Of a stretch of 64,000 bases of DNA, positions 4,341 through 36,201 are shown piece after piece (positions within the stretch are counted from its first letter, which is position 1; every line of letters begins with the position of its first letter). Location of the stretch: positions 124,001-188,000 of IMG/VR virus record IMGVR_UViG_3300048997_000130; one strand, written 5' to 3'. Both the position numbers and the translations under genes were made by a program. The stretch comes from a virus. Under the pieces are notes generated by a model. It was not told where the DNA came from. It worked only from the letters and a program-made list of their open reading frames with translations, and made no database searches.

Positions 4341-4376
4341 TTTTTGGAAATCGACCGTTTTTCTCAGTAAGTTCCA

Positions 4377-4955: not shown

Positions 4956-4966
4956 GGCCAGTCGCC

Positions 4967-5545: not shown

Positions 5546-5552
5546 TCAAATC

Positions 5553-6693: not shown

Positions 6694-6710
6694 ATCATGA
6701 TAATTTCCAT
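6680..6710 (+). repeat. 31-bp direct repeat at gene junctions, copy 1 (second copy 7294-7324)
   Basis: The last codons of the 6178 gene, its stop, the spacer and the first codons of the following (now deleted) copy are identical to the 6801/7311 junction. It records duplication of a whole gene unit by recombination between junctions. Confidence 0.7.
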
Positions 6711-6769
6711 CCGATTTCATTGAAACCAAGCTTGCAGAATCGCGCGTACGTGCCGTTATGGACGGCTGA
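6697..6769 (+). pseudogene. deletion remnant of a C-tail family gene
   Basis: The stretch opens with the same start as the gene at 7311 (MIISI...), then breaks to a stop at 6723; from 6722 another frame encodes ETKLAESRVRAVMDG and a stop, identical in pattern to the end of the 6801 gene (KLAESRIRAIMDG). The beginning and the end of a family copy are thus joined with roughly 400 bases missing and the frame lost. This is direct evidence of gene turnover in the family. Confidence 0.65.
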
Positions 6770-6800
6770 GTCAAGCCATTTTTATATTTGAATCTACACA

Positions 6801-7307: not shown

Positions 7308-7310
7308 ATC

Positions 7311-7799
7311 ATGATAATTTCCATACTCTGGATTCAATCGAGTACATACATTCGAAGTCTTCGAACGGAGAAAATTCCAGTTCAATATTCATTCCATTCG
7401 CATTTTGAAAGTACTATAACATTCCGATCTTGTGCCCGAAATGAATCTTCTCTTTATCAAATCGAATTCCAGAATTCAGGCGATCCAGCTATATTCAATG
7501 TTGATTTTATTAATAATCATGCTGACAATTTAGATACTATTATCAGTTATGTTCCGAAATTGTTTAATAATTCTACAGTGTGTATGGAAGACCATCCTGG
7601 TCCATGCGTTGATGACGCATCTATAAAACGAATCCAATCACTGATAATAGAAGAAGTTTCAAAATTCGTTCCTATCATTGTATCTGAATATGTAACACAA
7701 GCTCTCCGAAATATTAGTTCGCTTCCACCCATTATGTCTGATGAATCCATTCTACAGAAGCTTGCAGAATTTCGTGTACGCGACGTCATGGATGGTTGA
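7311..7799 (+). CDS. C-tail family protein, short W-type, 162 aa (RDVMDG end)
   Basis: Starts three bases after the previous stop with MIISILWIQSSTYIRSL. The beta domain is shorter than in its neighbours; a central Asp/Asn-rich part (NVDFINNHADNLDT) is followed by the helical SKFVPIIVSEYVTQALRNI and the tail LPPIMSDESILQKLAEFRVRDVMDG. Third member of the 6178-6801-7311 tandem set. Confidence 0.8.
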   Translation: MIISILWIQSSTYIRSLRTEKIPVQYSFHSHFESTITFRSCARNESSLYQIEFQNSGDPAIFNVDFINNHADNLDTIISYVPKLFNNSTVCMEDHPGPCVDDASIKRIQSLIIEEVSKFVPIIVSEYVTQALRNISSLPPIMSDESILQKLAEFRVRDVMDG

Positions 7800-14979: not shown

Positions 14980-15516
14980 TTATTCTTCCATAGTTCCACT
15001 AATTATAGCTTCTGACCAAGCGTCTGTAACATCAGATTCTGTCAGATGTCTACCATATTGTTTCATTGTCGCAATTAACATATGTTTATAAGCTATCGAT
15101 TTACATTTTTTCCAAAGTTCCCATAGACTCGGACCATCAATTATTATTCTATTTGGAGTTTCCGGACATAACAGTCCAACCAATTTAAGATTGAGATTAT
15201 CAAAAAATGATTTCGGATCTTCGCTTAACACACTAAATGATTTTACAATTATGTCTTTATTGTCACATTCTATCGATATATCGACACAAGGTCGAAGCTT
15301 AAAAGTAGCTATTTTTTTATAATCACAATAAATTATGATGCGTAACGTGGCTAGTTCTAAATCAATGATTATTTCATGTGGATTAGTCCTCCCTTCCATT
15401 CTCACAATTGGCGGTATTCCATATAAACTGCCAGTTGTAGCCCCTTGAGCGCCAGCAAAAGACCCAGATATTGGTGTTGGGCCTACAGGGACTGATGATT
15501 TAATGATCGGAATCAT
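14980..15516 (-). CDS. C-tail family protein, 178 aa (SGTMEE end)
   Basis: Ser/Gly/Pro-rich start (MIPIIKSSVPVGPTPISGSFAGAQG) unlike other members, then a beta domain (EIIIDLELATLRIIIYCDYK, VDISIECDNKDIIVKSF), a helical region with LWELWKKCKSIAYKHMLIAT and the tail LTESDVTDAWSEAIISGTMEE, with Thr before the Met. The only complete minus-strand member. Its start overlaps the stop of the upstream gene by four bases. Confidence 0.75.
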   Translation of the reverse strand: MIPIIKSSVPVGPTPISGSFAGAQGATTGSLYGIPPIVRMEGRTNPHEIIIDLELATLRIIIYCDYKKIATFKLRPCVDISIECDNKDIIVKSFSVLSEDPKSFFDNLNLKLVGLLCPETPNRIIIDGPSLWELWKKCKSIAYKHMLIATMKQYGRHLTESDVTDAWSEAIISGTMEE

Positions 15517-16689: not shown

Positions 16690-16766
16690 ATGAGAAAATA
16701 CATAAATTATCAGCCAATTTCCGGAGATTCTACTATCTGATTTATATATGATGATTGGAATATCAT

Positions 16767-17399
16767 ATGAGCCTCAATTGCCAATTAACTATTAAAGGAT
16801 GTGGAGCTGGAGCCAGGAATGGGAAATTGGTGCATGATAAGACGGGCCCAGTATCAGATTTCCTTCGTGATAATCAATATTATTATCGGACAGTTCAGAA
16901 TCATTTAATTGAATGTAAGAAATGCGATCCACAAGAAGCTTTGGAAGGGTTCTTACAAAATCGCAATTCCACTAAAAAATTTGGTCAAACGTCCCAGACG
17001 TTGATATTGATGGCTTTATCATATGAAAAACGCTTTGCTCAATATGTCAAAGAAGAGACTATTGATGAATTCGTCATGCGCGGCCTAATAGAAGCTCCTG
17101 AATGTTTTATCAATGAAGAATTGCGTTTAACAGATAATCAACTTTTGCAAGCTTTGCGCTGGTCGCACTATGCGATTTGGGCTTTTCGTTCACTTAAACG
17201 TAATGTTTCGTATCCTGTCGGATTCGAAAAATTTATTGATATCGTAAAACATGGGATTTGGCGAGGACGTTCTATCGTTATATCTAGACGTGTCCGAACA
17301 CTTTGTGATATTTGTCTGGCGATTGAAGGGTTGGAAGTCTTGCCGTGTGATGAAGACTTGCAGAAATTGGCAGTGATTGGATCGATTATGGGAACATGA
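16767..17399 (+). CDS. C-tail family protein with unusual body, 210 aa (GSIMGT end)
   Basis: MSLNCQLTIKGCGAGARNGKLV starts a body unlike other members: almost all helical with CKKCDPQEALEGFLQ, DEFVMRGLIEAPECF, RWSHYAIWAFRSLKR and RRVRTLCDICLAIEGLEV. It ends CDEDLQKLAVIGSIMGT, with Ile-x-x-Ile-Met two residues from the stop. GC-richer and probably an unrelated protein that carries the tag. Its stop overlaps the next start (ATGA). Confidence 0.7.
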   Translation: MSLNCQLTIKGCGAGARNGKLVHDKTGPVSDFLRDNQYYYRTVQNHLIECKKCDPQEALEGFLQNRNSTKKFGQTSQTLILMALSYEKRFAQYVKEETIDEFVMRGLIEAPECFINEELRLTDNQLLQALRWSHYAIWAFRSLKRNVSYPVGFEKFIDIVKHGIWRGRSIVISRRVRTLCDICLAIEGLEVLPCDEDLQKLAVIGSIMGT

Positions 17400-17917
17400 C
17401 AACCATTGAAATTGATTGGTTCCAAAAACCGGATACTTCGTTTCCAATATTTTCGCATTCCATTCAGCTTGAAATTCAAGGACTGGATGCTGGATTAACT
17501 ACATTCCAAATCAATATAACATTTGATATGAATCTAAATTTTCATATCAATGTGAAATTATGTGGCCCGTTATTTGATATATCTTCTCCAAGCCGGCAAA
17601 TGCAAACGCGATCATATAATAATTTCAGTTCTGTTTTTACGCTAAAGGAACTGTCTAGTCAAGGACTTGACAATAATTTGCATCGACTGGCATCTAATGC
17701 TGTCCATTGTTTCACTTATTTAAATCTCGATGTATCGTTATTCGATCCGGTTCTTGCTCAAATTAAACAATCATTTCAACAGCGTCTATCAATATTGATT
17801 CGAGCGCATATTACTCAACAACTTATCATGGTTGTGGGTTTGAATGCATACATACCGGATGATGAAATAGATTCCATAATTCAAACTATTCGTATTACGT
17901 CTGTTCTAAGTTCTTAA
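17396..17917 (+). CDS. C-tail family protein, short W-type, 173 aa (TSVLSS end)
   Basis: The early Trp (IEIDWFQKPDTS), beta domain FQINITFDMNLNFHINVKL, and helical SILIRAHITQQLIMVV are those of the short group. The tail YIPDDEIDSIIQTIRITSVLSS is the only one with Leu in place of Met at position -3, which shows Met is strongly but not absolutely required. The next gene starts at the base after its stop. Confidence 0.78.
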   Translation: MTTIEIDWFQKPDTSFPIFSHSIQLEIQGLDAGLTTFQINITFDMNLNFHINVKLCGPLFDISSPSRQMQTRSYNNFSSVFTLKELSSQGLDNNLHRLASNAVHCFTYLNLDVSLFDPVLAQIKQSFQQRLSILIRAHITQQLIMVVGLNAYIPDDEIDSIIQTIRITSVLSS

Positions 17918-18448
17918 ATGGCTATTATTAAAGGATCTTGGATAATCAATATTGATGCGAATAAACCCAATATTGTACGAGAATTTGAATATCAATTTAT
18001 TTATTCCAATCAAATAAACGCTATAAACGCTTTGATTATATCTGTTGATTTCATATCAGAGCCTAAAAAAGCATTTGTTGATGTTCGAATGAATATTATT
18101 AGGCATAATTTCTATCAAAAATGTCTTGTTCACTACAATGAATTCAAGAATCCCTATCATTTGCCATTGATACTTGCTTTAAGACAAACTCGAGAGTTCT
18201 TGGATTCAATTGATGCTGCTGGTAGTTATGTAAATATGAATGACGTTTGGAAAGTTGATAAAGATAAATTCATATGTGATATAAAAGATTGTATTTTTAA
18301 GGAACTTTCAGAATTCTTACCAATTGTTGTTCGGAACCATGCTCGGAAGTCCCTTACTGATTTGCATGGTTTTCCTGGGCTTTTATCTGATTCCGATATC
18401 GATGAGCTGATTGCGGAAATCCGAGTTTCTGGAGTTATGAAACAATAA
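17918..18448 (+). CDS. C-tail family protein, short W-type, 176 aa (SGVMKQ end)
   Basis: No spacer from the previous gene. Starts MAIIKGSWIINIDANKP, beta domain with ALIISVDFISEPKKAFVDVRM, helical FLPIVVRNHARKSLTDLHGFP and tail LLSDSDIDELIAEIRVSGVMKQ. The helix preceding the tail has the L-P-I-V-V pattern seen in the 6178 and 7311 proteins, marking a shared ~55-residue C-terminal unit. Confidence 0.8.
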   Translation: MAIIKGSWIINIDANKPNIVREFEYQFIYSNQINAINALIISVDFISEPKKAFVDVRMNIIRHNFYQKCLVHYNEFKNPYHLPLILALRQTREFLDSIDAAGSYVNMNDVWKVDKDKFICDIKDCIFKELSEFLPIVVRNHARKSLTDLHGFPGLLSDSDIDELIAEIRVSGVMKQ

Positions 18449-18472
18449 ATTAAAGAAGGGAATTGGGATTTA

Positions 18473-18961
18473 TTGAAAATTAATACAATCGTTGAACAAA
18501 CCAATCATACTCAAAATTCTTTGATATTATTTCGTGATTCGGATGAATTAGTATATGATTTCCCGTACAATATCGTTAGTTTAGCCAGTATTCAAATAAG
18601 TATTGACCAAGCAACATTGGAAGCGACTATTTCAATATGGATTGAAAGCGGAATAGCAGTTTCCGGATGTTTTTCACCGTCTTCTGACATAAATCTCGAT
18701 GTTATTCTCGAACATCTACAGTATAAATTGAAGATCGAAGCAAAATTGATATATGAGAAACAATATCAATTTTACGCCCAATTTATTGAATATTTAATGG
18801 AACAAACTACGAACTTATTAAATAAATATATTCGAATGGCAATTCGTGATAATATTCGTCAACATTTATCACTGATAAACAATCTTCATCGATATATTTC
18901 AGACGAAGAATATGATATTATACTCTCAGAATCTCGAGTCCGCAGAGTTATGGCTATCTAA
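18473..18961 (+). CDS. C-tail family protein, short type, 162 aa (RRVMAI end)
   Basis: No ATG is available; a TTG at 18473 follows AAAGAAGGG by about 12 bases and gives a product with the right length (KINTIVEQTNHTQNSL). Beta part IQISIDQATLEATISIWI, long helix with EKQYQFYAQFIEYLMEQ, tail YISDEEYDIILSESRVRRVMAI. The last two residues (AI) are unusually hydrophobic for the family. Its stop overlaps the next start by one base. Confidence 0.75.
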   Translation: MKINTIVEQTNHTQNSLILFRDSDELVYDFPYNIVSLASIQISIDQATLEATISIWIESGIAVSGCFSPSSDINLDVILEHLQYKLKIEAKLIYEKQYQFYAQFIEYLMEQTTNLLNKYIRMAIRDNIRQHLSLINNLHRYISDEEYDIILSESRVRRVMAI

Positions 18962-19446
18962 TGACTAAAATTCATATTAAATGGATATCTACTTATAGAG
19001 AATTGCAATCAGAACTTATTTATGAATATCCTATTGATATTCGAGGAGATGATATAATTATCCCTGTCAATTTTAATATTTCTCTTTATTCTTTAAGTAT
19101 TAATATAAAATTGTGTCTGGATGACAAACTAAAATGGGTTTCTGATATTTATTTCCAAGATTTACGAAATAAAAATCCTGACGAACTATTGAAGAACATG
19201 CCCGATATGATCGAAGACTTATTTACTAAAAAAGGATGGATGCAAAATATTGATACGTCTCGAACATTAATAAAAATTATTTGCAATCGCGTTTTGGACG
19301 ATTTACAACAGCAACTACAGAATGTGCTCCAAATTTGGACGAGAGATAATATTCGGCAAATTTGTGAATTCTCTCGTTATATATCGGATGAATTTGTTGA
19401 TAAAACAATCGCTGAATGTAGAATTAAGCGAATTATGGACGAATAA
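18961..19446 (+). CDS. C-tail family protein, short W-type, 161 aa (KRIMDE end)
   Basis: MTKIHIKWISTYRELQSELIYEYP is close to the start of the 6801 protein (SWISGF). Beta strands IPVNFNISLYSLSINIKLCL; helical VLDDLQQQLQNVLQIWTRDNI; tail YISDEFVDKTIAECRIKRIMDE. Very AT-rich coding sequence. Directly abuts the next gene. Confidence 0.8.
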   Translation: MTKIHIKWISTYRELQSELIYEYPIDIRGDDIIIPVNFNISLYSLSINIKLCLDDKLKWVSDIYFQDLRNKNPDELLKNMPDMIEDLFTKKGWMQNIDTSRTLIKIICNRVLDDLQQQLQNVLQIWTRDNIRQICEFSRYISDEFVDKTIAECRIKRIMDE

Positions 19447-19989
19447 ATGGATACTTTTCCTATTATAGCTGTTTGGAGTACCATCAATCCCGATAAAGTC
19501 ATATCTAAAAACGAATATACGACGTTCGGATTCGGACCACAGATTGAAGAAATTAGAATTAATTTCACAGTGAGCTCTTATTCTAATTTGAATGTAGAAG
19601 TGGGAGTAATATTTATCTCTAAAAATCTCGGCCAAATTGATGAATATAGAACATTATATTCATCCGACATGTCTAAATCTGGGATTCAATCATTTTTAAA
19701 TGAATCTCGGAATTCATTATGGGCTGAATGCAAATTAAAACATATTGAGAAATGGAAAATCGCTCCGACAATTAACACAGTTAAAGAAGTCAATCAGCAA
19801 CTATCCAAACTTCTTGATATTATTAACGAGATAATATCAAATGAATTAATGATGAAGCTCCCTGAATGCGCAGCTCGTTATTTGAAATGGATTGTTAAAA
19901 TTATTCATGAGTTGCCTGAATTGTTATCTGATGAGACTATAGACGATTATATTAATAGGTTCCGAGTAAATAGAGTGATGGAATCATAA
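19447..19989 (+). CDS. C-tail family protein, short W-type, 180 aa (NRVMES end)
   Basis: MDTFPIIAVWSTINPDKV; beta core IRINFTVSSYSNLNVEVGVIF; helices with LLDIINEIISNELMMKLPECAARYL; tail LLSDETIDDYINRFRVNRVMES. The stop and next ATG are adjacent. Fourth of a four-gene set from 17396 whose reading order, lengths and elements match, pointing to tandem duplication. Confidence 0.8.
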   Translation: MDTFPIIAVWSTINPDKVISKNEYTTFGFGPQIEEIRINFTVSSYSNLNVEVGVIFISKNLGQIDEYRTLYSSDMSKSGIQSFLNESRNSLWAECKLKHIEKWKIAPTINTVKEVNQQLSKLLDIINEIISNELMMKLPECAARYLKWIVKIIHELPELLSDETIDDYINRFRVNRVMES

Positions 19990-21421: not shown

Positions 21422-21691
21422 ATGATATTTTTGAATTTTGGATATTTATTTGATACTGTGACAACGTCAAATAAATTATCGATCAATCCAACTGTTCATC
21501 AATCAGGACATACTGTCCTTGATGAGCGTAATGCAAATTGGTTTAAGCGACTCCCTGTCCACAAGAAAGTGGACTATTTTATCAAAAATGGGATGGGAAT
21601 TCGAGCTATCGCTAAAGAACTGCATCTGCCTAAGAAGACAGTTCGAGCTATTCTGCATAGTAACGTTCTGAAGGATGTCATGCAATCGTGA
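21422..21691 (+). CDS. helix-turn-helix protein with C-tail, 89 aa (KDVMQS end)
   Basis: Residues ~55-85 (VDYFIKNGMGIRAIAKELHL then PKKTVRAILHS) form a clear helix-turn-helix of the resolvase/Hin type: helix, GxGIRAIAKEL, turn, recognition helix. The recognition helix leads without a gap into NVLKDVMQS, the family tail. This is important because the body is unrelated to the beta/coil members. Likely DNA-binding; no catalytic domain. Confidence 0.75.
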   Translation: MIFLNFGYLFDTVTTSNKLSINPTVHQSGHTVLDERNANWFKRLPVHKKVDYFIKNGMGIRAIAKELHLPKKTVRAILHSNVLKDVMQS

Positions 21692-21698
21692 AGATTTA

Positions 21699-21827
21699 GT
21701 GAATAAGTTTGACGATTTTACGTATGCACATCCCTTGTTATCTTTGCCTATTGTAGTGGTTTTAGCCGTGTCTTTGCCCATTTATGTTTTCGCTGCTAAG
21801 CGAATTCTTAAATGGCAGCGGTCATGA
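21699..21827 (+). CDS. single-pass membrane protein, 42 aa
   Basis: From a GTG, the frame encodes a hydrophilic start (NKFDDFTYAHP), a membrane helix (LLSLPIVVVLAVSLPIYVFA) and a basic end (AKRILKWQRS), obeying the positive-inside pattern. It fills the gap between two helix-turn-helix genes and overlaps the second. The GTG start and weak ribosome-binding site keep confidence modest. Confidence 0.4.
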   Translation: MNKFDDFTYAHPLLSLPIVVVLAVSLPIYVFAAKRILKWQRS

Positions 21828-22015
21828 ACTGGCAAGAATCTAAATCTTGGTGGTCATTGTCGAACGACGATAAAAATCGACTTCGCTCTCGTATTCAAGA
21901 ACTTCGCCAAGAAGGTTTCATGGTTCGTTCAATCGCTAAATGGCTTGGAATCACTCGTTTAGTTGTTCGAGATTGTTTGCATGAAATTTTGACATCAGAA
22001 ATCATGGATTCTTAG
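21812..22015 (+). CDS. helix-turn-helix protein with C-tail, 67 aa (SEIMDS end)
   Basis: KNRLRSRIQELRQEGFMVRSIAKWLGI then TRLVVRDCLHEIL is a helix-turn-helix, with the same layout as the 21422 protein, followed by TSEIMDS at the end. Two neighbouring DNA-binding proteins with the tail suggest duplication followed by divergence. The short body shows the tail can be a large fraction of the product. Confidence 0.72.
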   Translation: MAAVMNWQESKSWWSLSNDDKNRLRSRIQELRQEGFMVRSIAKWLGITRLVVRDCLHEILTSEIMDS

Positions 22016-22468: not shown

Positions 22469-23059
22469 ATGTCTAATACTTCTCCATCCAGTCCGAAAGA
22501 GAAAACTCCGGAACAAGTCCGTCAGGAATTTCTGGAGATGATACATTTCAATATTCGATATTGGTCCAGCCATTCATTAGAGAAGTCCGTGGAGGATCGC
22601 TTAAAAGGTCTAGCTTTTTCAATACTAGTGGCTATAGATGGGAATCATGCAGGCCTCCCCGCATTTATTTTGGCCCCTAATCCCGATTCTACTGATAAAT
22701 CTCATCATATTAAGATGAATGAAGATTATTTTCCCGAACAAATCACTAATATCCGATGTAATATTTCAGGATCTCTCCAAGATGCACTTTATGGGATTCC
22801 GACTCCACAATTGATAGAACCAGACAGTAATCCTTATATCTGTATGGATTGCGGTCAAGATGGTTCTAGTGAGTTGGAATGTCTACATTGCCATAGTAAT
22901 CAAGTATTTAATAAATACGATAACGGATGGACTTGTAGGGTTTGTAAAAAGGAGTTATCGAGCAATTACCTATCCATCTGTTCCACAAAATGTCAAGAAG
23001 AATTTATTCAATTCGGAGAAGAGTGCTTTCCAAGTTTGCCTGTTAGCCACCCAAAGTGA
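22469..23059 (+). CDS. conserved phage-type protein with two zinc ribbons, 196 aa
   Basis: The segment TPEQVRQEFLEMIHFNIRYW, then LKGLAFSILVAIDGNHAGLPAFILAP, is a pattern found in small hypothetical proteins of many phages. It is followed by CMDCGQDGSSELECLHCHS and CRVCKKELSSNYLSICSTKC, two candidate zinc ribbons. No enzyme is known. The end overlaps another frame that carries a C-tail protein without its own start; a +1 shift at CCA AAG TGA would fuse the two. Confidence 0.75.
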   Translation: MSNTSPSSPKEKTPEQVRQEFLEMIHFNIRYWSSHSLEKSVEDRLKGLAFSILVAIDGNHAGLPAFILAPNPDSTDKSHHIKMNEDYFPEQITNIRCNISGSLQDALYGIPTPQLIEPDSNPYICMDCGQDGSSELECLHCHSNQVFNKYDNGWTCRVCKKELSSNYLSICSTKCQEEFIQFGEECFPSLPVSHPK

Positions 23060-23384
23060 ACTCGGACTCGAACTCACTGGAGTTCTGGATAGGAATCTTA
23101 TTCATAAGCTCGGTCCAATAGCCTTCTGCGCTAAAGGACTTTATAATTCCGGATGCACTCATTTAATCGATTGGACGCATATTCCTAATATCTGTCAAAA
23201 GCCCGTTGGTCCCATTTTATTATATATTGTCAGCCCAAAAATTCGACCAGGAACCGGATTCTTTGTCCAATCTTGTATTGATCATCATATGCAAGATGTC
23301 CAATTGACTGATCTTTGGTTCATTCGCAAACCAAATATTGAAGAACTCAATTCCTATTATATTCATACCATCATGGACATGTAG
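22860..23384 (+). CDS. C-tail family protein with uncertain start (HTIMDM end)
   Basis: Homology to the next gene begins around position 23,016 (EKSAFQVCLLATQSELGLEL against ALKYSIRQLQQQLNLEP), yet between the ATG at 22860, deep in the previous gene, and 23292 there is no ATG, GTG or TTG in frame. Either translation starts at 22860, at a CTG (23040), or by a +1 frameshift from the previous gene. The end NIEELNSYYIHTIMDM is a normal tail, so the frame is still selected. Confidence 0.55.
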   Translation: MVLVSWNVYIAIVIKYLINTITDGLVGFVKRSYRAITYPSVPQNVKKNLFNSEKSAFQVCLLATQSELGLELTGVLDRNLIHKLGPIAFCAKGLYNSGCTHLIDWTHIPNICQKPVGPILLYIVSPKIRPGTGFFVQSCIDHHMQDVQLTDLWFIRKPNIEELNSYYIHTIMDM

Positions 23385-23386
23385 AT

Positions 23387-23749
23387 ATGGTTTCCGATTT
23401 GATGATAACCAAAGAATCATGTGCTCTTAAATATTCAATTCGTCAACTCCAACAACAATTAAATTTAGAGCCTGATGGCGAACTCACAGCTTTATTGATT
23501 CCAGCTTTGAAACCTGGTTTATTTTTCCCTAAATATTTAAATTGTAATTTTGAACACAGTATAATATGGCGCTGTCAACGGCCAGCTTACGGTTTCGTTC
23601 TATTTCATGATATCAAACCGGAATCACGCATTGTTGTGACATGTTGCGAACAACATCCAATATCAATTGTTAAATTCGGTTGGAATTTCCGATTGTTGAC
23701 GAGTATTGAACGATCAGAATTAATTATTTTGCAAATCATGAATTCATAA
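23387..23749 (+). CDS. C-tail family protein, 120 aa (LQIMNS end)
   Basis: MVSDLMITKESCALKYSIRQ; LQQQLNLEPDGELTALLIPALKPG recalls the repeat of peptidoglycan-binding domains (L-Q-x-x-L...D-G-x-x), though it is too short to be certain. A beta part (YGFVLFHDIKPESRIVVTCC) follows and the end is ERSELIILQIMNS. Paralog of the start-less gene before it. Confidence 0.72.
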   Translation: MVSDLMITKESCALKYSIRQLQQQLNLEPDGELTALLIPALKPGLFFPKYLNCNFEHSIIWRCQRPAYGFVLFHDIKPESRIVVTCCEQHPISIVKFGWNFRLLTSIERSELIILQIMNS

Positions 23750-23796: not shown

Positions 23797-24351
23797 ATGT
23801 CTCCAAGAACTGGTATTATATTCTTGCTTGAGAATCTTCAAATTGCCTCCGAAATTGGCAGAGTTGCCGAACGTTTGGCCGGAGCTCGATTGTTACATGC
23901 TCAACTGAATATATATGAGCCTCTCATCGATGGTCCTGATAAATCTTTAAGGTTCAGTCATTTTTTCCATATTTCTGATGGACTAGATAATCAGTTCCTT
24001 ACTCAATCTTTGTTATTGAGTTTCCCGCAGTTATGTGATGTTGATCTGGTTCGCAATATTAGTGATACCAATCATATAAATACTCCCGGGAGTAAATCTG
24101 CATATTCCACTCTCATTGACTATGTTGACAATCAATTCCGGACGCAACTTAGAGAAACCAAAGCTCGATTGAATTTGGAATTCGAGAAGTTCCAAAAAAC
24201 TGATGCTTATAAACAGCAACGTATTCGGAAAGTCCAAGATTCCGCTCGTCAAGAACTCCAGAAATACTTGATACGATATGCGGAGCTCGATGATGAATTT
24301 ATCCGCAATACGATGGATACATTATTGATCCGAGATACAATGGAGCAATAG
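23797..24351 (+). CDS. C-tail family protein, long coil type, 184 aa (RDTMEQ end)
   Basis: MSPRTGIIFLLENLQIASEIG; a strand HAQLNIYEPL; then a long heptad-like helix, KARLNLEFEKFQKTDAYKQQ and IRKVQDSARQELQKYLIRY, and the end AELDDEFIRNTMDTLLIRDTMEQ. Thr replaces Val before the Met. The A-x-x-E-L-x-x-x-L-x-x-Y module before L-D-D is repeated in the next three proteins. Confidence 0.8.
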   Translation: MSPRTGIIFLLENLQIASEIGRVAERLAGARLLHAQLNIYEPLIDGPDKSLRFSHFFHISDGLDNQFLTQSLLLSFPQLCDVDLVRNISDTNHINTPGSKSAYSTLIDYVDNQFRTQLRETKARLNLEFEKFQKTDAYKQQRIRKVQDSARQELQKYLIRYAELDDEFIRNTMDTLLIRDTMEQ

Positions 24352-24353
24352 TC

Positions 24354-24938
24354 ATGGGAACCTTATCTGATTTTGAACATTCAACTATCGCTCAAATAGT
24401 ATTTAAGACTCCGGAATTATCGATATTATTGAAAAAACTTCCGAATATTTTGAAGAAGATTCGCCTACTAGATATTACGTTAGATATTTCTAGAGAATTC
24501 AATTCTGATAATAATTCATTCTCATGTTCTATTAAGAGACGCCATTTATTATTGATTAATGGGAAAGAAATTATAAAATATAATATTTCCAATATCGGAT
24601 TTTCAGATACACAACTGGATGCCGACGTCAGGGCTATTATTAGATCAAATTCTCCAATATTCTATACAGAAATGGATTATCAACGAACTATCAATCATTT
24701 AGAAAATTTGATTAATTTGGAATTCCAAGAACATCGATTCCGGAGCCAGACGAGGATCTATCGATTAATTAAACAATTTGTAAATACTTCACAATTCCAA
24801 ACGTATCAAACAACAACCATTCGCAATGCAGCCACTCAAGACATATATTCAGTCTTGTCTGCTTATTCGCATTTGGGAGATGATTTCATAAAATCATCAA
24901 TCGATACTTTTTTGATTCGCCATACGATGGATATGTGA
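24354..24938 (+). CDS. C-tail family protein, long coil type, 194 aa (RHTMDM end)
   Basis: Begins two bases after the previous stop. LLDITLDISREFNSDNN is the characteristic strand; NLINLEFQEHRFRSQTRIYR and TTTIRNAATQDIYSVLSAY form the helical stalk; the end is HLGDDFIKSSIDTFLIRHTMDM. Best alignment is with the 23797 protein over the last ~70 residues, and with 26826 over LGDD. Confidence 0.8.
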   Translation: MGTLSDFEHSTIAQIVFKTPELSILLKKLPNILKKIRLLDITLDISREFNSDNNSFSCSIKRRHLLLINGKEIIKYNISNIGFSDTQLDADVRAIIRSNSPIFYTEMDYQRTINHLENLINLEFQEHRFRSQTRIYRLIKQFVNTSQFQTYQTTTIRNAATQDIYSVLSAYSHLGDDFIKSSIDTFLIRHTMDM

Positions 24939-25502
24939 ATGGCTAAATCGTTCGATTTTGATAAAGGCGTTGCAGCCATTTACGCGTCTGATGAATTTGC
25001 AACGATATCTAAGGGACTGGAATCCAGTATTAAATCTCTCAGATTTTCCGATGTCCGATTTGATGTATTCATACAGGAAAATAAATCTAAGTTAAAGATC
25101 AATGTAATATTTCTAATCCATGCAGGTGAATGCTCTGTTATAGCTCACCGCAATTTTAAGATCCGATGCAGACAAATCATCGGGCCTTTGAACTTATTAT
25201 TGCAATTTGGCCAAATCCTTGAACCATATTGTCAAAATATTCAAATTGATATTGTGAATCAATTCTTGGATACAATGGATATTCGATTTGAAAGCATCAT
25301 TGAAGAAGCCAGTATACGACTCCGGAATCAATTTTGTGAATATTTGGAAAAACCCTATTTTAAGCAAAAGAGAACAGAAGCTGTTGTAAGTTATGCTAAA
25401 CAAGAAATGGATAAATTATTATCTATATTTTCTAATTTGGATTTTGAAACTTTGCAGTCTATATTTAATGAATCAATGGTTCGTAATATAATGGAACAAT
25501 AA
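24939..25502 (+). CDS. C-tail family protein, long coil type, 187 aa (RNIMEQ end)
   Basis: Adjacent to the preceding stop. MAKSFDFDKGVAAIYASDEF; strand LRFSDVRFDVFIQENKSKLK; stalk SIRLRNQFCEYLEKPYFKQK and AVVSYAKQEMDKLLSIFSNL; end DFETLQSIFNESMVRNIMEQ. The KPYFKQKR motif equals EPSFQQKR of the 4377 protein 20 kb away, so distant members share the stalk. Confidence 0.8.
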   Translation: MAKSFDFDKGVAAIYASDEFATISKGLESSIKSLRFSDVRFDVFIQENKSKLKINVIFLIHAGECSVIAHRNFKIRCRQIIGPLNLLLQFGQILEPYCQNIQIDIVNQFLDTMDIRFESIIEEASIRLRNQFCEYLEKPYFKQKRTEAVVSYAKQEMDKLLSIFSNLDFETLQSIFNESMVRNIMEQ

Positions 25503-25503
25503 T

Positions 25504-26118
25504 ATGAATGATCCTGTGATCAATAAAATGATAAGAAAAATTTGTTCTTATCCAGTTATTACAACAGTAATTAATAATCATAAAGACATTATTATTAATT
25601 CAAAAATTATTGAATTCCAGTGCGAATCTGAACTCGGCATGACGCCCAGCAAATCGTTTGTCATTGCTACTACGTTATACGCGATTGTTCAAATTTCTGA
25701 GCAGAATTATCTCATGGCATCTGAGACTATAGAATTACTCTTGGATTGGCATCCGTTTAAGGTTCAAGATATTATGCAATCGTTAGTCAATGAAGTTATC
25801 ATTAAATGCGTTGAAGCGATAACTATCCAGTTCGATAGAATACTGACTGAGTCTGAATTATCATATGTTAAACTCCATATCTATGACTTCATTAATACTA
25901 CCAATTCCGAAGTTCTTAAGCAAAAATTTGATATGTTCAAAACCCAAACCAATGATTTCATAAAATCGGCTGCATTTGAACAACTACGTCGTAAGTCCAC
26001 TATTAAAATTTTTGAATCATGTCTGCATGGATTCATGGGCGCATTTGAAAGCATTGATGATAACGTGATGCGCGCGGCTTTCAATTCATACTTTGTTCAT
26101 ACTATTATGGAATCCTGA
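25504..26118 (+). CDS. C-tail family protein, long coil type, 204 aa (HTIMES end)
   Basis: MNDPVINKMIRKICSYPVIT; strand SKIIEFQCESELG; helices IMQSLVNEVIIKCVEAITIQ and KQKFDMFKTQTNDFIKSAAF; end FESIDDNVMRAAFNSYFVHTIMES. The AAFEQLRRKSTIKIFESCLHGF segment is this member's version of the A-x-x-E-L-x-x-x-L module. Directly followed by the next ATG. Confidence 0.8.
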   Translation: MNDPVINKMIRKICSYPVITTVINNHKDIIINSKIIEFQCESELGMTPSKSFVIATTLYAIVQISEQNYLMASETIELLLDWHPFKVQDIMQSLVNEVIIKCVEAITIQFDRILTESELSYVKLHIYDFINTTNSEVLKQKFDMFKTQTNDFIKSAAFEQLRRKSTIKIFESCLHGFMGAFESIDDNVMRAAFNSYFVHTIMES

Positions 26119-26793
26119 ATGCCATCGGCTATATCTCATAGAGACCCAGTCTATCATTATTTAGATATAGCCAATTTATTATATGAAACTGATACTATTC
26201 AACATTTAGTCAATTCATATATATCATATTTATCAAAATTAGAAGTTTGGGGGTTCACTATCGATTTTAATATTGTATTGCGCAAGGGTTATGCTATGTT
26301 GTCGCCAAAAGTCCTAATGAATATTGGTCAATCTTGCAGTTCTGGGATTCTTGTTTATGATATGTATTCAGGAGCTTCTTTGCATACAATATTAAACTGT
26401 TCCAGTTTATCAATTATCTCGGACAAAATCTTACGTGGTGTTGTTACTAAATATGCAATAACTAAATATTCTGGTCAGGAATTAGAATTATTTATAACTC
26501 AATTTATGGCATATCAAGGTAACATTCAATTTTCCGGAGGATTCCCACAATTTGTGACTACTAAAATCAATAATAATACTTCTTCGTTATTGAATGACAC
26601 AGTCGTTCGATTATATGGAAAAATCGATGTTATCAAGAATAGTGCAGAATATAAAAAGCGCTACAACGAAGCTTTAGAAGAATCTGCTGAATATGATATT
26701 GGTCGATTACTAAATCTATATAAAGATGTTAAAAATTCAGTGCGACAAGAGATCCTTTCTAAATTCATTGTTACTTCAGTGATGACTGAGTAA
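26119..26793 (+). CDS. C-tail family protein, long coil type, 224 aa (TSVMTE end)
   Basis: One of the two longest members. MPSAISHRDPVYHYLDIANL; strand KLEVWGFTIDFNIVLRKGY; helical KIDVIKNSAEYKKRYNEALE and ESAEYDIGRLLNLYKDV; end NSVRQEILSKFIVTSVMTE. The body has an extra ~30 residues before the stalk compared with 24939. Confidence 0.8.
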   Translation: MPSAISHRDPVYHYLDIANLLYETDTIQHLVNSYISYLSKLEVWGFTIDFNIVLRKGYAMLSPKVLMNIGQSCSSGILVYDMYSGASLHTILNCSSLSIISDKILRGVVTKYAITKYSGQELELFITQFMAYQGNIQFSGGFPQFVTTKINNNTSSLLNDTVVRLYGKIDVIKNSAEYKKRYNEALEESAEYDIGRLLNLYKDVKNSVRQEILSKFIVTSVMTE

Positions 26794-26825
26794 ATTCGGA
26801 TTTTCAATTCATATAATATTTTGAC

Positions 26826-27500
26826 ATGGCATCCAGTTATCTCAGGATTTACGAACGATTATATATGACTCCTAAATGTCAAAATATTATCGAAAATTTC
26901 CAATCGGCATTATCTTCGGCTAGAGTTTGTGACTACAAATTCAATGTTCGTATTGATAGCAATGATGATCTCATCATTTCGCCGTCATTTAAAGTATCCG
27001 TTAGTCCATTCTTTGATAATTTCTCTGAACCACCAAATCGCAGACATTCTAATAATGACCATTTTTTCTCAATTGCTAGTCATTCTTACAATTTCATTTC
27101 ACGAGATATTTTAGATAATATTGTTGATTATTATTGGTCCAATCCGAAAGGTTATTGGTCCAATCCGGGAAGCATTCCCACTTATGGATGCGATAAAGAC
27201 GTCGTTAAAAAAGGTCGGAGTTTTACGGGGAAACGTAATGTTGATTCTTTCATAACATATTTTCGAGAGCGTGTTGATGCAGAAACTAAAGAACTCCGGA
27301 CTGAAGCCATAAATCGAACGTCCATTCAAATGGACGCCATGATATTGGATCCACAATTTGCTATTAAACGAGATGAAACAGTTGTGCATCATGCTCAAGC
27401 TGAAATTCGGAAAGTCTTGTCTATTTATAAACATCTTGGTGACGACGTACTCCGGACTGCTATTTCCAGTTTTGTAATTGGTTCAGTTATGGACGAATGA
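26826..27500 (+). CDS. C-tail family protein, long coil type, 224 aa (GSVMDE end)
   Basis: MASSYLRIYERLYMTPKCQN; strand ARVCDYKFNVRIDSNDDL; a Trp/Tyr-containing internal repeat (YYWSNPKGYWSNPGSIP); stalk RTSIQMDAMILDPQFAIKRD and AQAEIRKVLSIYKHL; end GDDVLRTAISSFVIGSVMDE. The tandem WSNP repeat is unique to this member. Stop overlaps the next ATG. Confidence 0.8.
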   Translation: MASSYLRIYERLYMTPKCQNIIENFQSALSSARVCDYKFNVRIDSNDDLIISPSFKVSVSPFFDNFSEPPNRRHSNNDHFFSIASHSYNFISRDILDNIVDYYWSNPKGYWSNPGSIPTYGCDKDVVKKGRSFTGKRNVDSFITYFRERVDAETKELRTEAINRTSIQMDAMILDPQFAIKRDETVVHHAQAEIRKVLSIYKHLGDDVLRTAISSFVIGSVMDE

Positions 27501-27916
27501 TGTTGAACCAGACTTTAATCCTTAATTATATACGTCGATCAGTAGATAATCTGATTATTTCGGAACCTGCTACTGATATGTTTGTGTTAATTAAATTACA
27601 AGATAATAATGTGTTGTATCTTCAACAGTTAGGGCCGATTGAAGATAATGAACATGAATATTGGATATTGGAGCTTCGAAATCAATATAATGGAGTTTTG
27701 GAAGCTATTCGATTTAGTAAAGAAGTCCCATATGCTAGGATTATTAATAGTAGCTTTCATACAGACTGGGTTATGAAAGTCTATGAACATTTCACATTTG
27801 CAATCACGCATTTATTGTCAACAACCATTGATTCGCTTCATGCAGCCGGTCTGAATATTGAAGAAATAAATGACGAAGTTCGACATGTTGTGGTTTCAAC
27901 AGTTATGAATAAGTGA
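27497..27916 (+). CDS. C-tail family protein, compact type, 139 aa (STVMNK end)
   Basis: MMLNQTLILNYIRRSVDNLII; beta sheet TDMFVLIKLQDNNVLYLQQL; YWILELRNQYNGVLEAIRFS; helix VMKVYEHFTFAITHLLS; end LNIEEINDEVRHVVVSTVMNK. This compact layout (helix, sheet, helix, tail) is shared with the 29701, 30121, 35278 and 36202 proteins. Confidence 0.78.
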   Translation: MMLNQTLILNYIRRSVDNLIISEPATDMFVLIKLQDNNVLYLQQLGPIEDNEHEYWILELRNQYNGVLEAIRFSKEVPYARIINSSFHTDWVMKVYEHFTFAITHLLSTTIDSLHAAGLNIEEINDEVRHVVVSTVMNK

Positions 27917-28116
27917 TGCGTGCTAGTTATAAATTCGGAGTGCGCTGGATAGCAGAAAATGATGAACCCATCGCTCAAACTCCTGAAGACGCAGTCGGTT
28001 TAATATCTATCTTGCTTTTAGCTGATCTGTTTGGGAAAACGCCAGAGATAGTTGCTCGGGATGTTTTTGATTATAAGAACAAGATGCTGGTGATACGAGA
28101 CGTTATGGAGTCGTAA
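27916..28116 (+). CDS. C-tail family mini-protein, 66 aa (RDVMES end)
   Basis: ATG at 27916 overlaps the previous stop by one base. MRASYKFGVRWIAENDEP; then LISILLLADLFGKTPEIVAR and DVFDYKNKMLVIRDVMES. Only a short helical body precedes the tail, so this is one of the smallest carriers of the tag. Confidence 0.7.
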   Translation: MRASYKFGVRWIAENDEPIAQTPEDAVGLISILLLADLFGKTPEIVARDVFDYKNKMLVIRDVMES

Positions 28117-28343: not shown

Positions 28344-28663
28344 AACTGGTGGATTTGGAACCACAATTCTTGAAGGTTATTGATGCGGATTCTCATTGTT
28401 ACGTAGATACGATTCTAGAAGCTCAAGGTTTATTGTTTTTGTGTCCATTATGTTTTATTAATAATAATGGTCCGATTGGAACACATTCAATATTGACTTG
28501 GTTCCGTGATAGAGGCGTTCCAGACGATCAAATTCCCATCCCTGGCCGATGGATAATGTCTGGTTCCGATTATTCCAATTTGAATTTATATCCTTCCATC
28601 CAACTCACGCTTGGATGTAAATGGCACGGCAATATAATCAACGGTAATATTCAGATATTATGA
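28340..28663 (+). CDS. conserved phage-type protein with zinc-binding residues, 107 aa
   Basis: MKLVDLEPQFLKVIDADSHC; GLLFLCPLCFINNNGPIGTH; WFRDRGVPDDQIPIPGRWIM; end QLTLGCKWHGNIINGNIQIL. The combination FLCPxCF..NGGPxGTHS, PGRW and CxWHG is known to me from small proteins of many phages, where the Cys/His residues probably bind zinc. Function unknown. Overlaps the next gene (ATGA). Confidence 0.75.
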   Translation: MKLVDLEPQFLKVIDADSHCYVDTILEAQGLLFLCPLCFINNNGPIGTHSILTWFRDRGVPDDQIPIPGRWIMSGSDYSNLNLYPSIQLTLGCKWHGNIINGNIQIL

Positions 28664-29061
28664 CATCTAAAGCTAATATATGTTATAGTATACACACTAT
28701 TATCAAGGAATTGATTCATAATATAGAAAGCCATGATATTATCTTATATAAATTCCCGTATAATGTATGTATTAAATTTAGCATGAATTATACATCAAAT
28801 ATGCAAATCAAAATTTGGTCCTTAAGTTGGTCTCGTAATAATGTATTCCAATCCAACATTTGGATTGTAGATTCTACCAGATTACCAGAAAATGTCCAAT
28901 TATTTAATGCATTTTTAAATGAAATTGTTGATCAATTCATATTAGATATGGAATCGATTATTGATAATGCTATCGATAATCTTGCACTATTAAATTTAGA
29001 CGTATCATGTTTACATACAATGATTGATAAAGTTATTGTTAATAAAGTAATGATTACATAA
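28660..29061 (+). CDS. C-tail family protein, compact type, 133 aa (NKVMIT end)
   Basis: MTSKANICYSIHTIIKELIH; sheet YNVCIKFSMNYTSNMQIKIW; helix NAFLNEIVDQFILDMESIID; end CLHTMIDKVIVNKVMIT. Very AT-rich. The Ile at -2 is unusual; acidic or polar residues are the rule there. Confidence 0.75.
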   Translation: MTSKANICYSIHTIIKELIHNIESHDIILYKFPYNVCIKFSMNYTSNMQIKIWSLSWSRNNVFQSNIWIVDSTRLPENVQLFNAFLNEIVDQFILDMESIIDNAIDNLALLNLDVSCLHTMIDKVIVNKVMIT

Positions 29062-29087
29062 ATTATGTGTTGTATATTATTGGAAGA

Positions 29088-29630
29088 ATGAGTATATCAA
29101 AATTAACTGCAGAGTTGAAGGCAATACCATTATCTTCTACTATTGATGAATCAATATTTAATCAAATTATCCATGAATGCCGCATTATAACGAAAATCCG
29201 ATATCATTCATATAATGCAGTTTTAACCCCAGAATTAATCCCGATAATACGAGTTAGATATCGGACTCAACTTTTACATCGGCGTGTGCAGCGTTTTTTT
29301 ATTGCTGGACAACCCATAATTGATCAAATATTATATTCTTTTGAATTGCCGATTCGAACAGCTTTTAAATCGAAAATCGAATTATTCCTTGCTGAATATA
29401 TTGCAAAAATTGAATCTGACGTTCGACAATCTATAATTAAATCCGGTCAAGATGAAAAGTTCCAAGATAAAATCAGATTTAGGCGTTTAGAACGTTATCA
29501 TAAAATCCAATCGGAACAACAAGAAACATTATATACAGAAATTAAACGTGCTTTTGATATTGGAATCACTCGCGATGCTATCGTTACTATCATAGATACT
29601 GTATGTTGCCAAATTACTCATGACGAGTGA
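29088..29630 (+). CDS. C-tail-like protein with diverged end, 180 aa
   Basis: ATG at 29088 (a TTG at 29067 adds seven residues). MSISKLTAELKAIPLSSTID; strand RIITKIRYHSYNAVLTPEL; long basic coiled coil RRVQRFFIAGQP ... KFQDKIRFRRLERYHKIQSE; end RDAIVTIIDTVCCQITHDE. The layout is that of the long group, but the tail lacks V-M: CQITHDE ends the chain, so it is a decayed or alternative tail. Confidence 0.65.
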   Translation: MSISKLTAELKAIPLSSTIDESIFNQIIHECRIITKIRYHSYNAVLTPELIPIIRVRYRTQLLHRRVQRFFIAGQPIIDQILYSFELPIRTAFKSKIELFLAEYIAKIESDVRQSIIKSGQDEKFQDKIRFRRLERYHKIQSEQQETLYTEIKRAFDIGITRDAIVTIIDTVCCQITHDE

Positions 29631-29700
29631 TAAACATGGCGCATTTATCCACTAAGCCGGCTCGAATCACGGGTTTCTGAATCGATGCTGCGAACTAATC

Positions 29701-30120
29701 ATGAATTTTGAATTTAAAATTCGGCAGAAAGTCATTGAATCCCTATCGATCCTACTTGAGAGACATGAACAAAATCCAATTTCCTCGCATATCGCTCCGA
29801 TTGTGTTATTTAATTTCCGTGATATATCGAACATAATTCTATATATTAATCTGAAACATACTGCACATACTAATAGTTTAAGATTTGGATGCGAAATCAA
29901 GCGTGAATTCGATATGGTGACCATGTCAATTCCGAAACCGATTTCATTAAATTGTATTGGTGTACAAGAATTTGTTGATGAAGTGGTCTCTAGATCATCA
30001 TATCATTTAGATAAAGACATCAGAGATTTGATGAATGGTTTCTCTGGATTAGGAATCGGAGCACATGAACTTCATCAACATATGTTGGAATTAATTGCTG
30101 CTGATATAATGGAATCATGA
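29701..30120 (+). CDS. C-tail family protein, compact type, 139 aa (ADIMES end)
   Basis: MNFEFKIRQKVIESLSILLE; sheet SNIILYINLKHTAHTNSLRF; helix GVQEFVDEVVSRSSYHLDKD; end GAHELHQHMLELIAADIMES. Forms an obvious tandem pair with the next gene: lengths 139 and 137, same element order, no spacer between them. Confidence 0.8.
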   Translation: MNFEFKIRQKVIESLSILLERHEQNPISSHIAPIVLFNFRDISNIILYINLKHTAHTNSLRFGCEIKREFDMVTMSIPKPISLNCIGVQEFVDEVVSRSSYHLDKDIRDLMNGFSGLGIGAHELHQHMLELIAADIMES

Positions 30121-30534
30121 ATGTTTGAATCTAATATTCGGCCGCATGTTGAGAAAGCTGTCCGTTGTTTACTTGATAGATTTGATTCCAATCATTTGGA
30201 TTATGATAAAATAAAATTATTGCGAATTCACAATGAATCATGGGTGACTGTTTCCATCAAAGCCGAAATCCATCCTATTTATAAAGTAGCTTTTAGACTA
30301 TATGGTCACTTTTGGAGACCCAATAGGACGATAGAGACTTCGATATTCCATTATCCAGTATTAGATAATCATTCAATGGAGACGTTCATTGAACAAATAA
30401 TTGACGCGATTTCAGATAGAATCCAAACGCATTTATTAGAATTTATTCAAGCTTGTTCCACGGTTGGTGTTGAAAAACAATATCTTAACCAATATTTATT
30501 GGATCATATTGCTCAAGAAATAATGGAGTCATGA
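30121..30534 (+). CDS. C-tail family protein, compact type, 137 aa (QEIMES end)
   Basis: MFESNIRPHVEKAVRCLLDR; sheet SWVTVSIKAEIHPIYKVAFR; helix SMETFIEQIIDAISDRIQTH; end VEKQYLNQYLLDHIAQEIMES. The tail preceding helix (LNQYLLDHI) matches LHQHMLELI in the neighbour, a clear paralog. Stop overlaps the following ATG. Confidence 0.8.
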   Translation: MFESNIRPHVEKAVRCLLDRFDSNHLDYDKIKLLRIHNESWVTVSIKAEIHPIYKVAFRLYGHFWRPNRTIETSIFHYPVLDNHSMETFIEQIIDAISDRIQTHLLEFIQACSTVGVEKQYLNQYLLDHIAQEIMES

Positions 30535-30794
30535 AGGTTCAATTCGAAAACCTCCGATATTTTCTGAAGTGGTATTGGGGGCTAGATTTGCGTCGTGCAG
30601 ATTCCGAATCTGAAACTTCCAGATTCACGGGAATTTATAAAACGGGTTTTATAGTAAGCGGTCCTCGTCCTGGATTTAAATGGAGCAAAGATCGAAGATA
30701 TCGATCTCTTTTAGAAATTGCTAGAATATTTGAATATGATAAATATCGTAGTGATTCGTTGGAACGTTTGGCTGCAGGAGTCATGAATACTTGA
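30531..30794 (+). CDS. C-tail family mini-protein, 87 aa (AGVMNT end)
   Basis: MKVQFENLRYFLKWYWGLDL; RFTGIYKTGFIVSGPRPGFK; DKYRSDSLERLAAGVMNT. The body is small and basic (pattern like a single sheet with Trp residues), not similar to the other groups. ATGA overlap with the previous gene. Last tailed gene before a block of conserved genes. Confidence 0.7.
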   Translation: MKVQFENLRYFLKWYWGLDLRRADSESETSRFTGIYKTGFIVSGPRPGFKWSKDRRYRSLLEIARIFEYDKYRSDSLERLAAGVMNT

Positions 30795-32146: not shown

Positions 32147-33163
32147 ATGAAGCTCAATGGGATCCATGCATTCGAATTTAATTATTTGAAAGATGAATAC
32201 CCATTATCACAAGAATGGAGGGATATTCAAGCCTTTGAACATTCTGTGACTGTATGTGATGTTAACATCGTGCTATTTGGAATGTCAGCCACACATAAAT
32301 CCGGAAAAGAAATATCTGCTAGTTCCATTCATGATTTCGAACATATTGCTAGTGGTGGACTAGCTGCAGCATATTTTGAACTGTTGGAAAGGACGGCTCT
32401 TATAGAAGCTTCTTCCGTTCCCCATTTCCCGATTATTAATTATCTTGGCGAAGAATTCGGGCAAATCGATTATACGAGAGTGTTTCCCGGATCACCAGAT
32501 CCACGCTGGAAATATTCATTATCGAATGGCATATCGGCCAATATTGGAAGAGAAGCTGCATGTAAATCAGCCAATTTTGAATTAATTGAACGCGATTTAA
32601 TTTTGAGATCTTGGTATGATAATTTGAAATCTATTAAAGTTTCTAACTGGGTCGAGTTCCCAACATCTTTCAATGATAATTATGACATCCAATCTTATTC
32701 ATTTTCGAATTCTGATCAAGATTGTTCTGTTGTTGGTATATTCGGTTTCCCGAAAATCCATATTCCATTAATCTATGGATTTGGAGCTCGAGCTACTATT
32801 GATGAAGCTATTGCTGTGGCAAAGCGCGAATGCATTCAAAGACTTGGATTTTTGTGGGGCGAATCTATACCTTCGCAAGCTCCGACTTTAAAATGCACTG
32901 CAGAATTCCATCAAGCATTTTATTTATATCCGCCGCATCATATTAAACTTCGGAACTGGTTAGATAATGATCTTGGTCGGATGATGCATGTTCCTACCTG
33001 TAAAATCGAAAATCGACAATTCATCGATTTGACTCCTGATCATTTGAAGCACAAAATGTACGTTGTGAAAGCACTTCTAAAAAGTGAAATCCCTTTAACA
33101 TTTGGACTTCCAAGATCATGCAATCGGATTTATCCGGACAGAACAATTCATCCAATAGCGTAG
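32147..33163 (+). CDS. YcaO-domain protein, 338 aa
   Basis: The three diagnostic helices of the YcaO fold are visible: AAYFELLERTAL (E78, E81, R82), SANFELIERDLILRSW (E145, E148, R149) and AVAKRECIQRLGF (E228, Q231), the ATP/Mg-binding residues. SNGISANIGREAACK and YGFGARATIDEAI are the expected connecting motifs, and the chain ends IHPIA, similar to the Pro-rich end of cyclodehydratases. YcaO enzymes use ATP to activate a backbone amide, making azolines, thioamides or amidines in peptides, or help modify ribosomal protein S12. No partner (E1-like, TfuA) or precursor peptide is recognised nearby. Last ~45 bases overlap the next gene. Confidence 0.85.
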   Translation: MKLNGIHAFEFNYLKDEYPLSQEWRDIQAFEHSVTVCDVNIVLFGMSATHKSGKEISASSIHDFEHIASGGLAAAYFELLERTALIEASSVPHFPIINYLGEEFGQIDYTRVFPGSPDPRWKYSLSNGISANIGREAACKSANFELIERDLILRSWYDNLKSIKVSNWVEFPTSFNDNYDIQSYSFSNSDQDCSVVGIFGFPKIHIPLIYGFGARATIDEAIAVAKRECIQRLGFLWGESIPSQAPTLKCTAEFHQAFYLYPPHHIKLRNWLDNDLGRMMHVPTCKIENRQFIDLTPDHLKHKMYVVKALLKSEIPLTFGLPRSCNRIYPDRTIHPIA

Positions 33164-35172: not shown

Positions 35173-35277
35173 TTATTTTGGTTGGATTCTGATTGCCAAT
35201 TTCCATGATTGGCTTCTCGAATTGAATCTTCGGTATTCACATCATGTAGATATGAATATTATTTTTATAGAAATATT

Positions 35278-35703
35278 ATGAATTTGACTGGAAATTATGA
35301 AACTATAACAATTGATGATTCGTCTTGGTCTCTTCGATGTAGTTGGTATAAAGAATCTCATCATTGGTCGGTATGTATACGGATTTGTTTGAACAGTAAA
35401 CCTGTGGAAGAACTTGTATATTATGTGATTCCTGGTGGGAATTGGTCTGTGAGCGATTCAAGAATGGTTCCCAATAAACTAAATTCTATGCAAATTGCTA
35501 ATTTGATTGAGAAACGCTTGATTTCCAGTATGGCGCCATTGCCGCGCCCTATTGATATCGCCGAGTTCATGGATCGAGTACACAAACTCGCGCTGGTGGA
35601 AATGTTTCGGCAATTCGCAAAAGAATGGACAGGCGATATTGCAGTGGAAGATATTGCTTGTATTTGGGCCGAAGAACAATATCGCGGAGTTATGGAATCG
35701 TAG
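35278..35703 (+). CDS. C-tail family protein, compact type, 141 aa (RGVMES end)
   Basis: The ATG at 35278 is preferred to a TTG 69 bases upstream. MNLTGNYETITIDDSSWSLR; sheet WSVCIRICLNSKPVEELVYY; helix HKLALVEMFRQFAKEWTGDI; end AVEDIACIWAEEQYRGVMES. The I-A-C-I-W tail helix matches I-E-K-I-W of the 36202 protein, a close paralog. Confidence 0.75.
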   Translation: MNLTGNYETITIDDSSWSLRCSWYKESHHWSVCIRICLNSKPVEELVYYVIPGGNWSVSDSRMVPNKLNSMQIANLIEKRLISSMAPLPRPIDIAEFMDRVHKLALVEMFRQFAKEWTGDIAVEDIACIWAEEQYRGVMES

Positions 35704-36183: not shown

Positions 36184-36201
36184 CTGAATAATTGATTGAA
36201 T

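Follow-up and report, generated by a model that had tools for sequence, protein, structure and literature searches.

Varied binding modules joined to a brief terminal stretch, through which each docks to a single machine, are known from SspB-type ClpX adaptors, F-box proteins and poxvirus ankyrin-PRANC proteins. In phage T4, about 10 N-terminal residues are enough for the packaging of internal proteins that are diverse and poorly conserved (PMC9026906), and import into the phage nucleus by the PicA pathway uses surface features and no terminal signal (PMC11087766). MoxR-VWA pairs bind clients via an acidic residue at the MIDAS (PMC9976466, PMC4660213), and the MoxR-vWA-metallopeptidase pair of jumbo phages has been proposed to act in virion assembly (PMC7824862). 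In the phage described here, as in T4, a short terminal peptide is attached to unrelated proteins, but it is C-terminal in every case rather than N-terminal, and a MoxR-VWA pair with an intact MIDAS is encoded together with the putative clients.

The window analyzed was a 64,000-nucleotide stretch, bases 124,001-188,000 of the 196,676-base IMG/VR virus record IMGVR_UViG_3300048997_000130 (G000). The record is a tailed phage that codes for major head protein, terminase, portal and head-protease-like proteins, and it also encodes ribonucleotide reductase and DNA ligase. About 42 proteins of the window, and about 50 in the 197-kb record, carried a C-terminal tag of the approximate form [VI]xx[VI]M[DE]S-stop. 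Typically, two hydrophobic residues are followed by one that is acidic or polar and then, in most cases, by Ser (V/I-M-D/E-S, then stop). A literature search, most subscription journals lying outside it, returned no paper describing such a tag. The tagged genes of the window are as follows.

3699-6113, plus strand: four family-A tagged genes (stops 4340, 4955, 5545, 6113)
6178-7799, plus strand: three family-B tagged genes, ends VMDG/IMDG (stops 6693, 7307, 7799)
14980-15516, minus strand: tagged gene, SGTMEE
16755-17399 (alternative start 16767), plus strand: tagged protein, GSIMGT; orthologues in 5/6 other tag phages, most with tag-like ends
17396-19989, plus strand: five family-B tagged genes (stops 17917 with the weak end VLSS, 18448, 18961, 19446, 19989)
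21422-21691, plus strand: helix-turn-helix (HTH) protein, tag KDVMQS; residues 54-79 align to HTH models (best E 5e-4, short of the curated cut-offs)
21812-22015, plus strand: HTH protein, tag SEIMDS; AlphaFold pLDDT 82, three helices, PDB match 2x48 (prob 0.98)
22860-23749, plus strand: two related tagged genes (stops 23384, 23749)
23797-27500, plus strand: six family-A tagged genes (stops 24351, 24938, 25502, 26118, 26793, 27500)
27497-28116, plus strand: two tagged genes (VMNK, VMES)
28660-30794, plus strand: five tagged genes (stops 29061, 29630 with the weak end THDE, 30120, 30534, 30794)
35209-35703, plus strand: tagged gene, YRGVMES
36196-36735, plus strand: tagged gene, NDIMTD
39975-40730, plus strand: tagged gene, IQDVMKS, immediately before the MoxR gene
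47128-47442, plus strand: tagged gene, REVMET
49583-50359, plus strand: tagged gene, KYVMNI
51136-51813, plus strand: tagged gene, KSVMDE
52699-53013, plus strand: tagged protein, QEVMDS
53026-53406, plus strand: tagged protein, NAIMDS
53424-53774, plus strand: multi-pass membrane protein, tag RNIMES; three hydrophobic segments (Kyte-Doolittle)
53771-54193, plus strand: membrane protein, tag RDIMES; one segment over threshold (Kyte-Doolittle) and several hydrophobic stretches
54624-55052, plus strand: zinc-knuckle-like protein by sequence (CPVCG..H....C), tag IKIMHS

Eight proteins of this list had been named in an earlier sequence-only reading as sharing one tail, and the ending was found on all eight. 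The open reading frame (ORF) of the zinc-knuckle-like protein, for which a Pfam search gave no match, can begin at 54624 (TTG) and not only at 54756. The 21422 ORF is overlapped by a longer minus-strand ORF (21503-21781); it was taken as real because of its tag and its resemblance to the 21812 protein, with which it shares 27% identity and the same HTH region. Outside the window, tagged ends were located at record positions 16259, 23599, 80556, 89695, 92293 and 94221, and three more lay at the far end of the record (195513, 195887, 196288).

To delimit the tag, we examined information content along the protein ends. It was high at -7, -4, -3, -2 and -1, with E preferred at -10 and an acidic residue (D/E) at -2 in 47-62% of tags, giving the fuller form E..[IV or T]..[VI][M/Q/H or V/I/L][D/E]S-COOH of about 10-12 residues. 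In the related phage G001, information fell near sampling noise upstream of about -12, and the additional hydrophobic positions upstream of the tag in G000 are due to its paralogue families. A helical end of 35-40 residues was confined to these two families, and outside them the common part is the last 10-12 residues. The earlier reading had allowed for a tail as long as the last 60 residues; the widely shared part proved far shorter. The tag sat on the last helix in both AlphaFold models, those of the 21812 protein and of the family-A protein at 26826-27500 (pLDDT 72, tag on helix 206-223).

The tag was found in six further large phages (G001, G002, G003, G012, G013 and G014), giving 227 tagged gene calls in all. 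Relatives were found via the MoxR ATPase and via terminase with a two-sequence alignment, while a single-protein IMG/VR search and a query with the terminase containing a putative intein retrieved no relatives. In the window, Met occupied position -3 in 56 of 471 stop-terminated plus-strand frames, compared with 13 of 613 minus-strand frames. For G000, interior positions of its proteins predict 3.4 ends of the pattern [VIL]x[DEN][SGAET]-stop; 28 were observed, and 21 of these 28 ends had Met at -3 (0.1 expected). The same pattern was in excess in G001 (49 vs 6.4), G012 (31 vs 4.2), G014 (14 vs 2.4), G002 (27 vs 2.5) and G003 (14 vs 2.3), and weakly in G013 (8 vs 3.7). Six tagless relatives, pooled, had 14 tag-like ends against 15.0 expected, which is chance level, and no excess was seen in Bacillus phage G (12 vs 9.3), which has a head protein with 35% identity. 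The scanned portion of W01, G008 and W02 was 200-260 kb. The tag regular expressions varied between these counts and were partly post hoc, the controls being interior positions and tagless relatives; chance as the source of the tag was rejected. A small conserved minus-strand protein in the tag island (window 38473-38877), with homologues in G001, G002, G003 and G012, was found only in tag phages; it and its homologues end FFSFGD, FVFGD or WVYGD.

Several other features of the record were noted. Type I-C-like CRISPR-Cas genes are carried on the phage (window 57676-63400), matching Cas5c (E 9e-23), Cas8c (E 1e-24), Cas7c (E 4e-46) and a helicase; an untagged protein (59672-60151) lies between cas genes, and a CRISPR-like array of about 7-10 repeats with a spacing of 72-75 lies just outside the window (L009 1367-1978, record 188,367-188,978). 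A PurZ-like succino-amino-deoxyadenylate synthase gene (L005 16021-17202, E 1e-57, under the curated cut-off), kept in all tag phages, suggests that the phage DNA contains 2-aminoadenine. The head-protease-like protein, portal, terminase and ribonucleotide reductase are overlong with interrupted homology (L003 843-3551, 7791-12206, 13105-16707; L005 4112-8212), which suggests inteins in these proteins. A YcaO-domain protein (window 32147-33163, PF02624 E 5e-8) possibly modifies peptides. Shine-Dalgarno-like motifs upstream of genes were scarce (18% in G000 vs 39% in Tunturi_5), which may say something about the host. A MoxR search of GTDB genomes found no relative, so no host was assigned, and scanning for promoters gave no distinction between early and late regions.

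We next considered whether the tag could reflect the DNA or common descent rather than a shared peptide function. A gene end might double as a ribosome-binding site or other signal for the next gene, with ATGGA preceding a start codon; many tagged genes of G000 indeed abut the next start, with the GGA of ATGGA at the position of a ribosome-binding site. However, across the phages Ser at -1 was written with both TCN and AGY, and D/E and V/I with all their codons, while about half of the tagged genes had no start codon within 25 nt downstream. These varied synonymous codons and distant starts show that ribosome-binding sites or translational coupling do not explain the tag. G002 and G003, moreover, hold the rest of the protein pattern with V/I/L in place of Met and thus no ATG. 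Translational coupling, marked by constrained codons with an adjacent start, was accordingly rejected, and a DNA-level effect of any kind is extremely improbable. The tag is encoded at the protein level.

Descent from a single family is hardly more plausible. After trimming of the last 14 residues, the 50 tagged proteins of G000 formed 36 clusters at E<1e-3, of which 32 were singletons. Two paralogue families, of nine and five members at this threshold, fused at E<0.01 into a loose group of 18-19 of the 50, an observation that favours all tagged proteins being diverged members of one family. Against it, the bodies adopt different folds. The 21812 model is a three-helix HTH, with PDB matches that are almost all DNA-binding HTH domains (none below E 0.001), and the family-A model is alpha/beta; a Foldseek search of the latter against viral models gave nothing significant. 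Zinc-ribbon and membrane proteins are also tagged. In relatives, the tag is found on ankyrin-repeat proteins, of which the set has five members (two were tested, E 8e-41 and 2.5e-27), and on DUF4116 repeats (E 9e-18). Binding-type bodies (ankyrin, DUF4116/HEAT-like, zinc ribbon, HTH) are frequent. One homologous domain family was therefore rejected for want of a shared sequence or fold, simple homology is very unlikely, and the earlier view that the bodies lack a common ancestor is borne out by the clustering and by the models. In PADLOC, tagged proteins matched PDC-M72A and MzaA (five members each); these hits probably stem from ankyrin repeats and were not read as a defence function.

A few tagged bodies have untagged homologues (in G008 for record 92293, in W01 and G002 for G012:34568, in G012 for G001:242813), indicating that tag and body are separable. 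Of the proposed mobile module, it is this separability that is shown; tags may have spread by recombination or arisen anew by point mutation. In one or two paralogue families, which account for about 14-19 of the 50, the tail is ordinary homology. In G002, a 750-aa helicase-like protein (73083-75335) ends KTEDVVDG, in the manner of that phage's own tags, and its G000 homologue is untagged; on sequence, it may represent a gain of the tag by a core gene. The tagged proteins are small (median 125 aa; 4 of 227 above 320 aa), 173 of the 227 genes are ORFans within the panel, and conserved genes are strongly depleted among them (p 5e-23). Family A was present in 7/7 tag phages, in 0/5 tagless records and not in phage G; a search of cultured phages found none.

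The tags fall into two dialects. In G000, G001, G012, G013 and G014, position -3 is mainly M/Q/H and -7 is I/V, whereas G002 and G003 have V/I/L at -3 and T/A/S at -7 (147:13 vs 8:44, Fisher p 1.4e-25). A MoxR tree parted the two groups with full support, indicating that the dialect change was one evolutionary switch carried by all tags. Such a joint change of tags on unrelated proteins is best explained by one partner with an altered binding site, and the tags very probably have one shared reader. The concerted dialects, together with positively charged segments seen by inspection beside the C-termini of both membrane proteins, fit the earlier placement of the binding partner inside the cell.

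Two untagged proteins encoded inside the tag island form the candidate reader.

40777-41970, plus strand: MoxR-type AAA+ ATPase (phrog_1297, E 6e-43)
45277-46830, plus strand: DUF2201 metallopeptidase-VWA protein (PF13203 E 2e-17, PF09967 E 2e-11)

Both were present in 7/7 tag phages, with tagged genes near MoxR in relatives as well, and neither was found in nine to ten tagless records or fragments, several of them partial. In DUF2201, the HExxH, DxSGS, GGT and TDG residues were invariant, and the MIDAS (DxSxS..T..D) was intact (D390, S392, S394, T450 and D475 invariant). Its N-terminal and Cys/Gly-rich inserts are missing from the DUF2201 proteins of tagless phage G and schitovirus KpCHEMY26. 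The ratio of between- to within-dialect divergence was 1.76 for DUF2201 and 1.56 for MoxR, the top values among 66 shared families being 1.80 and 1.73. However, phage G carries MoxR and DUF2201 without the tag, as does the Klebsiella phage KpCHEMY26 (tag-like ends 0/54), so the pair alone does not imply the tag. Other proteins, among them those encoded at window 8280, 38473 (minus strand) and 51888 and at record 19586, 78415 and 81780, are equally limited to the tag-phage clade, and since the seven phages form one clade and six were found through MoxR, co-occurrence is confounded by ancestry and ascertainment. It also weighs against this reader that -2 carries an acidic residue in no more than about half to 60% of tags and that the dialects changed once. 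We tentatively regard the MoxR-DUF2201 pair as the leading candidate for the reader, at somewhat less than an even chance.

Other roles for the tag were weighed against this assignment. The strongest rival, though itself rather unlikely, is a C-terminal counterpart of the T4 capsid-targeting sequence. The packing of diverse internal T4 proteins by about 10 terminal residues (PMC9026906), the small and mostly ORFan tagged proteins, the head-protease-like protein of the phage and the virion-assembly role proposed for the jumbo-phage pair (PMC7824862) all speak for it. Conversely, targeting peptides and propeptides of T4 and SPN3US are mostly N-terminal, multi-pass membrane proteins are not likely to be carried in the head, tagless relatives also conserve the capsid and protease genes, and small size is usual for phage ORFans (untagged median 108.5 aa). 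The tag might instead be a C-terminal degron through which a protease of phage or host destroys the tagged proteins at a set time. C-termini that are short and hydrophobic are a classical type of degron, and the tag island encodes an AAA+ ATPase and a metallopeptidase; but we know of no ssrA-type or other ClpX/Lon C-degron that resembles the conserved acidic and Ser end, and phage-specific dialects disfavour a host reader, which would be expected to keep the motif fixed. A degron is improbable on this evidence. A signal by which proteins are anchored at a replication compartment, or at some other phage structure within the cell, would explain one tag on HTH, zinc and membrane bodies; no chimallin appeared among the annotated genes, however, core replication proteins are untagged, and known phage-nucleus import works without a terminal signal (PMC11087766), which makes this reading a little more improbable still.

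Under the MoxR-DUF2201 assignment, the tail would serve for docking: many small, fast-evolving proteins would carry this amphipathic, helical C-terminus of about 10-12 residues, and one conserved cytoplasmic phage partner would collect them by it. The VWA metal site of DUF2201, or a neighbouring pocket, may bind the acidic, hydrophobic C-terminus. The repeat, zinc-ribbon, HTH and membrane bodies could then recruit a range of targets, which the machine would remodel or cleave; alternatively, the tagged bodies themselves may be remodelled by MoxR/DUF2201. By analogy, the phages may thus possess an adaptor system in which dozens of fast-evolving binding modules share one dialect-specific tag and the MoxR/DUF2201 unfoldase-metallopeptidase acts on what each brings, a proposal that we consider possible but doubtful. 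With a single partner, the tag would identify between about a tenth and a fifth of the genes in a phage as its clients. Most phage ORFans are without a functional handle, and the tag would then offer a first functional hint for hundreds of proteins; the dialects provide a ready test of partner specificity. Should MoxR/DUF2201 prove to be the reader, a pair of phage genes that has so far attracted only guesses would be accounted for too.

Among known systems, the T4 capsid-targeting sequence (IPI-III, Alt) likewise places a terminal peptide of about 10 residues on diverse proteins with an exchangeable body. It is N-terminal, cleaved by gp21 and borne by few proteins, whereas the tag described here is C-terminal and occurs tens of times per well-sampled genome. 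PicA import shares the selective sorting of phage proteins and species-specific recognition, but it relies on surface features without a terminal signal (PMC11087766), in contrast to the terminal tag. MoxR-VWA pairs (NorQD, CbbQO, RavA-ViaA and the jumbo-phage MoxR-vWA-metallopeptidase) have their counterpart in the pair of the tag island, with HExxH and MIDAS intact; elsewhere we found no link of such pairs to a shared client tag, and phage G and the schitovirus have the pair without it. In their logic, the tag phages can be likened to the SspB, F-box and PRANC systems, in which varied modules carry a short terminal element, the reader here being a candidate.
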